This document shows positions 43,211 to 64,000 of a DNA stretch of 64,000 bases, in pieces. Source of the stretch: Pseudoxanthobacter soli DSM 19599 (GTDB lineage: Bacteria > Pseudomonadota > Alphaproteobacteria > Rhizobiales > Segnochrobactraceae). The stretch is taken from contig NZ_FRXO01000005.1 of assembly GCF_900148505.1 (NCBI RefSeq), positions 124,001 through 188,000 on the forward strand, written 5' to 3'. The position numbers and the translations under genes were made by a program. The notes below the pieces were generated by a model that saw nothing but the letters and a program-made list of their open reading frames with translations, was not told the DNA's origin and did not search any database. Within the stretch, counting starts at the first letter, position 1; each line of letters opens with the position of its first letter.

Positions 43211-43822
43211 ATCGCGTTCCCCCCTGATCGGAACGGCCCTGTCGATCCCCCCGGATCGACAGGCTTCAGTGTGCACCGGAGGCGATATGCCGGCACCAGA
43301 AAACATGCCGATGACGAAAAAAGGCGTTCATGACGGGGACGTCATCCGCCCCACGTCTTCACGCGTCTCGCTTGCGACGGCGACCGCGACGCGAACACGT
43401 CGGTTCGTTAAATATCGGACATGTACCCGGCGTGGGTAGTGTGTATATGGACGTGGGCAAGAGAAGGAATATTCTTATCTACATCGACGAAGTGATGTTG
43501 AAGCAAGATGACATAGAATACGTCAGGGGAGACTGTAATTTTATGTTGTCGCGATCAGAGCAAAAATCGTCGATGTCGAGAGATTTGACTCGAAACGTCA
43601 CGTCTTCCCGGCGATATGAACAGGCCTGCACCGATCCGCACGGAATGCAAAGTCATTGTGACGCAAATCGGCAGGGCCAATCGAAACACCGTCGATCCGG
43701 GACCGATCCAGCTCACCCGGGGCGGCAATCAGGCACTTGAGGCAGCAGCGTTCCCCCCGCCGGCGGTTTGCATCGGTTGGGAAACGTTCCCGCGCTCGAT
43801 CACAACAGCAACGAGGCAAGTC
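43211..43822. other. 612-bp gap with a low-GC patch
   Basis: By hand count 43441-43560 has 50 G/C of 120 bases (about 42%), far below its surroundings. A frame starting ATG 43447 (97 codons, to 43740) reads MDVGKRRNILIYIDEVML and on, but it has no ribosome site and its second half looks noncoding. The patch may hold promoters for the permease and the peptide gene or be imported DNA. Confidence 0.4.
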
Positions 43823-44110
43823 ATGTCCGTCTTCGCACGTCACAATGCCAACGTCGCTCTCGATGACGTGGCTCTTCAATCTGTCACCGGCGGCATCGCC
43901 CTGTCGCCCTCTCTCAACCCTGACGACTGGGGCCCGGGTCCGGCGATCCCCCCGCACGGCTACGGCTCGGGCCTGGTGATTCCGCTGGGTGACTTGGGTC
44001 CCGGTCCGGCGATCCCACCGAACGGCTTCGGTCCGGGGTTCGGCGTCCAGCCGACGGTCTCGCAGGGGATTGTGAACGTCCCGAACGGGCCGGTCCTCAG
44101 TGGCGGCTGA
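43823..44110 (+). CDS. Orphan double-glycine-leader peptide with Gly/Pro-rich repeats
   Basis: A 95-residue product with no family I recognise. Residues 1-24 look like a leader peptide ending in a double-glycine cleavage site: VALDDVALQSVTGG, with the spaced Leu-Leu-Val pattern seen before GG in bacteriocin and RiPP precursors. The remaining 71 residues are rich in Gly and Pro and contain two 22-residue repeats (35-56 and 57-78) that share GPGPAIPP, then HGYGSG or NGFGPG. There is no cysteine. GAGG lies 8 bases before ATG 43823, and a strong terminator follows at 44196. No C39-type exporter or modifying enzyme is nearby. A secreted antimicrobial or signalling peptide is a hypothesis only. A frame start at 43616 is possible but has no leader logic. 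Confidence 0.6.
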   Translation: MSVFARHNANVALDDVALQSVTGGIALSPSLNPDDWGPGPAIPPHGYGSGLVIPLGDLGPGPAIPPNGFGPGFGVQPTVSQGIVNVPNGPVLSGG

Positions 44111-44195
44111 GGCTCGCCGTTCTCCTGAGGTGTGCCGGATCGCCCGGCCCGGCCGTTCTTCTCGAAACCATCCGGTTAGTCGAAACGATCAGACG

Positions 44196-44234
44196 AGGCC
44201 GCCATCCGCATCGAATCGGATGGCGGCCTTTCCA
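44196..44234 (+). terminator. Strong intrinsic terminator after the peptide gene
   Basis: Arms AGGCCGCCATCCG (44196-44208) and CGGATGGCGGCCT (44217-44229) are a perfect 13-bp stem with an 8-base loop, followed by TTTCCATTTC on the plus strand. There is no T-run on the other side, so it serves the rightward peptide gene, 86 bases upstream. It supports the view that this small gene is really transcribed as its own unit. Confidence 0.8.
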
Positions 44235-44285
44235 TTTCGCAAAAGGCCTGTGCGGGAAAGCCCCGCAATCTGGAGAGGAACGGGA

Positions 44286-44630
44286 TCAGCCGGCGCGGCT
44301 GGCCGGCGAAGGCAGGGCCGGTCCGGTTCCCGCCTCGGCGCGGGCACGGTTGCGCTCCGCCTCGCGGCGCCAGTGCCCGGCCTCGCGCCGCTCGCGCCTG
44401 AGCGAGCGGCGGTCGGAAAGGCCGCGGAACCACATCCCGACGCTGCCGATGACGACGCCGAGCGCCAGCACGGCGAACAGGGCCCAGTAGAGCGGAATCT
44501 GGAAGGCGACGGCAGGGGCGACACTGTTGAACGGATCGAGCGAGACGAGCACGACCTGCCGGTTGGCGACGGCCACGGCGACGAGCGCCACGGCCAGAAC
44601 GATCAACACCAGAGCCTTCAGAAAACGCAT
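44286..44630 (-). CDS. LapA-domain membrane protein
   Basis: A 114-residue small membrane protein. Helix 1 is about 4-24 (LKALVLIVLAVALVAVAVAN) and helix 2 about 47-68 (PLYWALFAVLALGVVIGSVG). A basic cytoplasmic tail (SDRRSLRRERREAGHWRREA) probably forms a coiled coil. This is the LapA (lipopolysaccharide assembly protein A) domain pattern, with NRQVVLVSLDPFN between the helices. In E. coli LapA works with LapB in controlling LPS synthesis; whether this short protein does the same is inference. It is 162 bases downstream of ihfB on the same strand, a common Rhizobiales order. Confidence 0.85.
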   Translation of the reverse strand: MRFLKALVLIVLAVALVAVAVANRQVVLVSLDPFNSVAPAVAFQIPLYWALFAVLALGVVIGSVGMWFRGLSDRRSLRRERREAGHWRREAERNRARAEAGTGPALPSPASRAG

Positions 44631-63102: not shown

Positions 63103-64000
63103 ATGAGACAGGGAAATCCCAACAAGCGCCTCCGTGGCAGGAATAACAACAATAACAATAATAATAACGGCAATAACAATCGGAAAGGCCCAAATCCGTT
63201 GACGAGGACTTATGAGTCCAATGGGCCGGATGTGAAGATTCGTGGCACTGCGCTGCACATCGCTGAAAAGTACATGCAGCTTGCGCGCGATGCCCAGTCT
63301 TCGGGCGACACGGTTACCGGCGAGAACTATCTTCAGCACGCCGAGCATTATTATCGCATCATCGCTGCGGCGAATGCGACCTCTCCTCATCCCGTGTTCG
63401 TGCGGGAGGACGATACCGCCGACGACGATTTCGACGGCGCGCGCCAGGAAGGCCGCTACCAGGACTCCAACAATCGCTACGACAACAACGTCCGCAGCGA
63501 GGGCAACCGCTTCGAGGGCCAGCGCCAGGACCGTCCCGAGCGCCAGGAGCGCCAGGACCGTCCCGAACGCCAGGACCGTTCGGAGCGTTCGGAGCGCCAC
63601 GACAATCGCCAGGAAGGCGGCTATCGCCACGAGGGCGGCCGCAACGGCGATGCGCCCTACCAGCAGCGCCCGCGCCACCAGCGCTTCGAGCGCCCGGTGT
63701 TCAACAACGGCGACCCGACCCTGCCCCCCGGCCTCGGCCAGCAGCCCGATATCGCGCCCGAGCCGGTGAACGCCGCCCGCGCGCCCGCCGCCCCCGCCCC
63801 GAGCCCGGCTCCGGTTCCCGCTGCGGCTGACGAGGCGCAGCCGGCCGTTGCATCGTTCGAGGCGGAGGTGCCGCCCGTTTCCGCAGAAGCCGCGCCGGCC
63901 GAGCCGGCCCCGCGGGCGACCCGCGGCCGTGGCCGTCCGCCGCGCACGCCGCGTCCGGCCGCCGAGGCCGACGAGGAGATCGCGAGCGCTGCCCAGGTTC
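63103..64000 (+). CDS. DUF4167 domain protein (partial, runs off the window)
   Basis: An open frame from ATG 63103 to the window end, 299 codons with no stop, so the C-terminus is missing. MRQGNPNKRLRGR is followed by a run of asparagines broken by one glycine (residues about 14-26). Then comes the DUF4167 core: GPDVKIRGTALHIAEKYMQL, ARDAQSSGDTVTGENYLQHA and EHYYRIIAAANA. After residue about 115 it becomes low-complexity: Arg-Gln-Glu-Asp-rich repeats such as QDRPERQERQDRPERQDR, then Ala-Pro-rich, with GRGRPPRTPR near the edge. Such proteins may bind RNA, but no function is established. Its place after prmC is conserved in Rhizobiales. Confidence 0.93.
   Translation, partial: MRQGNPNKRLRGRNNNNNNNNNGNNNRKGPNPLTRTYESNGPDVKIRGTALHIAEKYMQLARDAQSSGDTVTGENYLQHAEHYYRIIAAANATSPHPVFVREDDTADDDFDGARQEGRYQDSNNRYDNNVRSEGNRFEGQRQDRPERQERQDRPERQDRSERSERHDNRQEGGYRHEGGRNGDAPYQQRPRHQRFERPVFNNGDPTLPPGLGQQPDIAPEPVNAARAPAAPAPSPAPVPAAADEAQPAVASFEAEVPPVSAEAAPAEPAPRATRGRGRPPRTPRPAAEADEEIASAAQV

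Follow-up and report, generated by a model that had tools for sequence, protein, structure and literature searches.

Double-glycine (GG) peptides carry a leader that ends in GG or GA and has hydrophobic residues at positions -4, -7 and -12. In streptococci such peptides serve as density signals with promoter feedback, and in the pneumococcal blp and com regulons GG peptides have promoter motifs and an exporter in common, in a Gram-positive host and under peptide-sensing two-component control. The present work concerns a gene for a predicted GG precursor of 95 amino acids in Pseudoxanthobacter soli DSM 19599, lying in a stretch of 64,000 nucleotides (contig NZ_FRXO01000005.1, positions 124,001 to 188,000; hereafter the window). 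The comparison with blp and com holds for the GG peptides, the common promoter motifs and the exporter, and ends at the two-component control and the Gram-positive host. The window peptide appears to work like a GG exported peptide, since both defining features examined are found, namely the leader and a putatively cognate C39 exporter encoded in the genome.

Among the described systems, NHLP-type three-part exporters (TIGR03794/03796/03797) are linked, in the accessible part of their description, to NHLP/Nif11 leaders and modified peptides (Haft et al., 2010, PMC2887384). The system described here is alike in that these exporter families are found above cut-off both in a relative and in this genome, and that GG processing is proposed in both (PMC2887384). 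It is unlike in its cargo, which has a short LDDxxLxxVxGG leader, no NCBIfam match and no recognised tailoring enzyme nearby, and which is unlinked from the exporter in the window's genome; the cargo that is linked to the exporter in the relative is short-leadered too. By the models tried (0 NCBIfam families at E <=10), the peptide does not belong to the NHLP or Nif11 leader families. Cyanobacterial GG bacteriocin clusters likewise encode a number of short precursors with GG/GA sites close to HlyD and C39 ABC genes; the precursors there were, as far as the available text goes, found by screening around clusters and follow another leader consensus, whereas the cargo here is partly scattered and has a promoter-like element in common (Wang et al., 2011, PMC3140520). 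EbfG1-4 and PteB of Synechococcus elongatus offer small secreted proteins with GG/GA leaders, a C39 exporter and no known domains, but their cluster is co-transcribed and Gly/Pro repeats are not mentioned for EbfG in the accessible text (PMC4997328). The Nap peptides of Neisseria also combine several GG peptides with a C39 peptidase; unlike the window peptide they are described as cationic and island-borne with a FapF-related channel, and as promoting autolysis with no competitor killing (PMC11798529). EbfG and Nap, as described, indicate that GG-type peptides need not kill competitors.

The Precursor and Its Homologues

The precursor consists of MSVFARHNANVALDDVALQSVTGG followed by a 71-residue core, and its leader ends in G23-G24, with V21 at -4, L18 at -7 and L13 at -12, in agreement with the GG consensus. 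A mechanical list of open reading frames (ORFs) holds a 164-residue version of the same frame, opening upstream at 43616; the start at 43823 is preferred because homologues from a second genome align from there, a GAGG precedes it and it gives a leader of usual length. The predicted mature part contains 15 Pro, 16 Gly and no Cys, only 6 of its 71 residues are Ser or Thr, and its calculated charge is -3.2 at pH 7. It would begin with IALSP and, if unmodified, have a mass of about 6,816 Da. GPGPAIPP occurs at residues 37 and 59 (spacing 22), followed by HGYG and NGFG, respectively, and periods of 11 and 33 residues are visible in the core besides that of 22. No confident fold was obtained with AlphaFold (mean pLDDT 47.8, three-sequence alignment) and the mature peptide is probably unstructured. 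The initial annotation had described this coding region and its product, with the 24-residue GG leader, two 22-residue repeats that each hold GPGPAIPP and a His/Asn-Gly-aromatic-Gly step, the absence of Cys and a plausible ribosome site, and the description stands after re-reading of the sequence and alignment with homologues. It had recognised no family, in agreement with the 0 Pfam and 0 NCBIfam families, bacteriocin models included, that the window peptide matches at E <=10.

Three genomes of the family were compared, one per genus: the window's own (G000), one from a different genus (G001) and one from a third (G002; 97% complete, 220 contigs). Searched against 199 relatives, the window protein gave matches at E 0.1 in 25 of them, and G001 was the sole other genome below E 0.001, with two tandem genes (E 1.1e-8 and 1.2e-5). 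According to the alignment, these homologues have in common with the window protein the leader LDD..L..VTGG, the stretch NP.D..GPGP and a second GPGPA.P, so that the homologue search proposed in the initial annotation did find relatives with the same start and leader, in one other genome. A match in G002 (E 0.02) was discarded for its two in-frame stops. Profile A1 matched 7 of 397 genomes of the order at E 0.01, G000 and G001 among them; the five others (E 0.0026-0.0073) cover just part of the profile and were dropped. Among 385 genomes of the class, a sample that lacks G001, profile A3 matched two, and G494 (E 6.9e-4) was dropped for three in-frame stops. No relatives were found in the collections genome_contigs, viral_contigs, plasmids and phages, from which records of or near the window's genome were possibly excluded, and a GPGPA profile gave 0 matches to PDB sequences at E 1. 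A literature search that left out most subscription papers met no repeat family of this kind in the text it covered. The peptide group is seemingly new, with convincing relatives in only two genera within the samples searched.

Compared with its two G001 homologues, the window gene gives NG86 estimates of dN/dS of 0.45/1.18 and 0.55/0.86, and the G001 pair gives 0.23/0.28 (ratios 0.38, 0.64 and 0.79; alignments of 75-78 codons), values that on such short alignments would fit mild purifying selection together with rapid change of the core. The position of the gene is not kept in G001, whose ihfB-lapA locus showed no homologue; the matching G002 contig stops at ihfB and is hence uninformative on gene position.

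The Leader and Other Cargo Peptides

A profile of seven leaders (that of the window peptide and six from G001) finds two clusters of peptide genes, one on contig C2 of the window's genome (E 0.0015-0.0042) and the other in G001 at 1.88 Mb, both overlooked by a regular-expression scan. GPGIALPP (two copies) and GPCPNP (three copies) occur in cores of the C2 peptides, which also include hydrophobic Gly/Ala-rich peptides, and G001 holds a GPCPNPDA-repeat peptide. Further genes with the same leader, which the initial annotation had suggested looking for, are present therefore in this genome and in G001.

To lessen circularity, a hidden Markov model (HMM) was built from 13 G001 leaders and run on every start in the window. 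Out of 2,976 starts it matched a single one at E <=1, that of this ORF (19.8 bits, E 7.1e-5), while in 20 shuffled windows the top score ranged from 4.2 to 11.6 bits. Three C2 peptides also match (E 1.5e-6 to 2.8e-5), and the noise level is given by an unrelated enzyme-like frame in locus L080, at E 0.017. With the leader kept in the G001 homologues as well, the double-glycine reading of it is well supported. The matches of leader profile A7 (17 seeds) in the 397 genomes number 4 for G000 and 13 for G001, the same as its seeds, with nothing outside these two genomes at E 0.001. When a six-member set was compared with family models, single members reached TIGR01847 at E 0.15, PF10439 at E 0.098 and PF03047 at E 0.077. 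A 324-residue protein with no Pfam family (L036 8873-9847, minus strand) is encoded between two C2 cargo transcripts.

Exporters

The exporter operon of G001 is of the NHLP type, in the order HlyD, C39-peptidase ABC (ABC1) and second ABC (ABC2). The tandem homologues start ~0.9 and ~1.3 kb downstream of its end, with another leader peptide in between, and further leader peptides are also found downstream of the operon. The two ABC genes match NHLM_micro_ABC1 and ABC2 above the curated cut-offs, and HlyD matches NHLM_micro_HlyD above cut-off. An orthologous operon occurs in the window's genome on contig C2 (locus L025), where all three NHLP models are again above cut-off and identity to the G001 proteins is 69% for HlyD, 74% for the C39 ABC and 61% for the second ABC. 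Its C39 gene occupies L025 7764-10037. Two regular-expression leader matches near this exporter were dismissed as unlike the leaders.

The genome-wide search for C39-peptidase ABC exporters that the initial annotation had called for reveals two C39 domains in the window's genome. The second belongs to a more distant exporter on contig C6 (L026), whose C39 ABC matches TIGR03796 below cut-off and whose HlyD matches TIGR03794 above it. Upstream of that exporter, an 826-residue protein (L026 5120-7600, plus strand) opens with the GG-type leader SSDILKSIVGG; it matches 0 Pfam families at E 0.1 and 0 NCBIfam families, and it is possibly a very large double-glycine cargo.

The gene is flanked by those of an amino-acid permease and a LapA-domain protein, and these two neighbours include no exporter, modifying enzyme or immunity gene. 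The term orphan, applied earlier with the same observation on exporters and tailoring enzymes, fits the position and nothing else: the peptide is an orphan by position only, because its homologues lie near an exporter whose orthologue this genome has on another contig, and it has a promoter-like element in common with other leader-peptide genes. The peptide probably uses an exporter encoded elsewhere in the genome. Linkage of the TIGR03794/96/97 type in G001, together with the orthologue here, may point to service by an NHLP-type machine, and of the two C39 exporters the one on C2 would be the candidate. G002 has 0 C39 domains and 0 cargo at E 0.001 and no match to the element model at E 10; in this small sample, exporter and cargo are co-present in two genera out of three and co-absent in the third.

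A Promoter-Like Element Common to Scattered Peptide Genes

A stretch of about 130 bases upstream of the gene (Table 1) aligns with sequence in front of two C2 peptide genes, at a mean column identity of 77%. A sequence-only profile model of these three copies was run over the three family genomes. Besides its seeds it matched four places in the window's genome, on contigs C7 (E 2.4e-12), C8 (1.1e-6), C15 (0.010) and C3 (0.095), and five in G001 (E 3.6e-4, 6.2e-4, 8.1e-4, 0.53 and 6.5). A leader-type ORF follows four of the nine, that on C8 and three in G001. The C8 peptide had not appeared in the earlier leader searches; it starts 22 bases past the element match, and its leader, which ends in ISGAG, matches the G001 HMM at E 2.1e-5. 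The C7 copy (L080) is followed by a hydrophobic ORF of 87 residues (L080 6195-6458, minus strand) that has a good ribosome site and no GG; its product may be a leaderless peptide or serve in immunity. No downstream cargo ORF was seen in the sequence read at C15 (L082 6579-6660, minus strand) or at the 3.89 Mb site of G001 (L084 6280-6359, minus strand, the match at E 6.2e-4), and these two element-like matches may represent decayed loci, small RNAs or chance. At C3 and at 3.11 Mb in G001 no cargo was found by the leader HMM, the only check made.

Reading of the sequence revealed two additional G001 copies before cargo that the model had overlooked, giving five such copies in that genome. In all five, TTAA stands 37 bases before TTGACC, which is 16 bases before TAT[CT][CT]T; the distance from TTAA to the -10 box, start to start, is 63 bases in G001 and 62 in the window (43408 to 43470). 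The strict pattern TTAA-N37-TTGACC-N16-TAT occurs five times in the 254,813 bases of 14 loci, always upstream of cargo (mean of 0.0 in 20 local shuffles), and a looser pattern occurs at 11 places in these loci (shuffle mean 0.1), ten of them element copies and one a stray at window position 63264. By manual count, both genomes show a block of conservation around CATG at about -60 relative to the predicted start. A plain sigma-70 consensus scan found no promoter in 43300-44300, and the hexamer at -35 is considered weak for that reason. The layout may be that of an activator-dependent sigma-70 promoter, and the genes behind it would form a scattered, jointly regulated set of exported peptides.

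The possibility that the element is a coding region was rejected, as its copies differ by a single-base indel. A known RNA family was rejected as well: at gathering score the search (131,004 bases from five sources) returned only two tRNAs, both in the window, and matches below the cut-off look like chance. Over the promoter and the early untranslated region (window 43401-43650) the GC content is 0.40-0.53 in 100-base steps, against 0.57-0.75 in most of the surroundings.

Table 1. Coordinates of the features of the peptide gene (window positions) and of a conserved stretch in the relative G001 (locus positions).
Feature	Position	Strand	Basis
Conserved promoter-like element common to other leader-peptide genes	43390-43518	+	Alignment with two other copies in the window's genome, genome search, G001 copies before cargo
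TTAA plus GGACATGTACCC block, proposed activator site, centre ~-60 of predicted start	43408-43428	+	Conserved block, near-constant distance to -10 box; binding putative
-35-like hexamer TGGACG (TTGACC in five G001 copies), weak	43448-43453	+	Alignment geometry
-10-like hexamer TATTCT; predicted transcription start near 43482	43470-43475	+	Alignment geometry; start predicted
GAGG, plausible ribosome-binding site	43813-43816	+	Sequence
Exported peptide precursor (predicted), 95 aa, from ATG	43823-44110	+	Sequence, G001 homologues, leader HMM
Double-glycine leader, 24 residues	43823-43894	+	Kept in G001 homologues; G001 leader HMM E 7.1e-5
Predicted mature peptide, 71 residues, Gly/Pro-rich, acidic, Cys-free	43895-44107	+	Computed composition
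Repeat 1, 22 residues, GPGPAIPPHGYG	43925-43990	+	Sequence
Repeat 2, 22 residues, GPGPAIPPNGFG	43991-44056	+	Sequence
Hairpin, 14 bp, short T tail, possible terminator between convergent genes	44195-44230	+	Fold energy versus shuffles
Conserved stretch of ~150-200 nt in G001, six copies	L037 8339-8518, 9785-9964, 11001-11188; L021 8253-8450 and 4225-4372 (-); L039 6855-7050 (-)		

The hairpin downstream of the gene has a fold energy of -29 kcal/mol (z -5.7), and none of 200 shuffles was equally stable. The initial annotation had given the gene its own terminator with a 13-bp stem; the strong hairpin stands, with 14 bp, and its role as the gene's own terminator is plausible, not firm, in view of the short T tail and of a terminator scan that gave 0 sites meeting its rule there.

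A separate conserved stretch lies immediately before cargo start codons in G001. It had no match in Rfam at gathering score in the copies of L021 and L037, its predicted fold has compensatory changes in 2 of 42 pairs, and no counterpart was found in seven searched loci of the window's genome, the window included.

Weight of the Evidence and Possible Activity

Leaving its activity apart, the reading of the gene as one for an exported peptide within a common regulon is given a probability of about 0.8. Leader homology, repeat homologues, linkage to an exporter in a relative, an orthologous exporter here and a common upstream element are observations; regulation, cleavage and export of the peptide are deduced from them. 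Several points weigh against this reading. Four of the nine non-seed element matches (E <=10) have no cargo found, two of them examined by the leader HMM alone. The looser pattern overlooks the C8 and C15 copies and gives the stray in the window; both patterns were composed after the copies were known, and the 14 loci had been picked because cargo, an exporter or an element match was present in them. With one C2 copy as query, a BLAST-type search recovered the other C2 copy and not that of the window. No element copy was found before this genome's exporter, and the starts beside the L025 exporter yield no cargo either (0 leader-HMM matches at E 1 among 988). The 13-leader set depends in part on the window, as 2 of the 13 are its homologues and 7 were found via the profile that includes its leader. 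The selection estimates are weak, with only three GPGPA-type genes known. Finally, there is no adjacent immunity gene, and the mature peptide is acidic, unlike typical cationic antimicrobials. It is nevertheless very improbable that the ORF is open by chance or is left over from a decayed gene: its GC content at third codon positions (0.79, against 0.83-0.90 in six other window genes) and the empty ihfB-lapA locus of G001 would agree with it, and it is opposed by homologues with the same leader and repeats, by the specificity of the leader HMM and by the conserved upstream element.

With respect to activity, microcin-like antagonism alongside the co-regulated hydrophobic bacteriocin-like peptides is the leading candidate, at somewhat under even odds, and is favoured because the mixed set includes such partners. 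A surface or matrix role fits nearly as well, in view of the acidic repeats, the lack of a confident fold and of an adjacent immunity gene, and is considered possible, if rather unlikely. The peptide would in that case resemble EbfG of S. elongatus, exported through a C39 system to an extracellular role without killing: EbfG1-4 are described as small secreted GG/GA proteins that are required for biofilm and rely on the peptidase PteB (PMC4997328), and the present peptide set also includes a GA-type leader (C8) and Cys-free Gly/Pro repeats. The hydrophobic Gly/Ala-rich, bacteriocin-like partners with the same leader and element speak against such a role. A pheromone-type signal of cell density that acts back on the common promoter would account for the promoter-like element before scattered cargo genes; a repeat-bearing mature product of 71 residues is long for a pheromone, and the many peptides that share the leader have differing cores, which makes this option improbable. 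More doubtful still is a ribosomally synthesised and post-translationally modified peptide, its core altered before export by an enzyme encoded elsewhere. NHLP-type exporters have been linked to modified peptides in the accessible description (PMC2887384), but the core lacks Cys and is poor in Ser/Thr, no NCBIfam model matches the precursor, and no tailoring family occurs among the neighbour proteins scanned at L021, L025, L036 and L037, several of which matched no family. Activities other than antagonism, surface function or signalling receive a similarly small share.

Proposed Model and Implications

In the preferred reading of an exported peptide within a regulon, a candidate activator would bind near 43408-43438 and turn on a sigma-70-like promoter common to scattered peptide genes. 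The NHLP-type exporter of contig C2 (HlyD, C39-peptidase ABC and second ABC) would recognise the 95-residue precursor by its LDDxxLxxVTGG leader; its C39 domain would cleave the precursor behind Gly24, and the acidic Gly/Pro-repeat peptide of 71 residues would exit the cell. More tentatively, and with the odds rather against it, the system may be a lineage-restricted secretome switch, in which one activator controls mixed double-glycine peptides at scattered loci, and in which the acidic Gly/Pro-repeat group (GPGPAIPP, GPGIALPP, GPCPNP) is a novel class of building or effector peptide outside the cell, which an NHLP-type machine, believed to handle modified natural products, exports without modification.

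Neither Pfam nor NCBIfam gives a confident match to acidic Gly/Pro-repeat peptides of this type, and neither do PDB sequences in the case of the GPGPA profile. Genome mining for exported peptides often looks next to exporters, and part of the cargo described here is on another contig; the promoter-like element helps to locate such cargo, as it did for the C8 peptide. If the regulon is real, the element would lead directly to the peptides that this lineage secretes, and it would make it possible to test whether unmodified peptides, too, are served by NHLP-type exporters.
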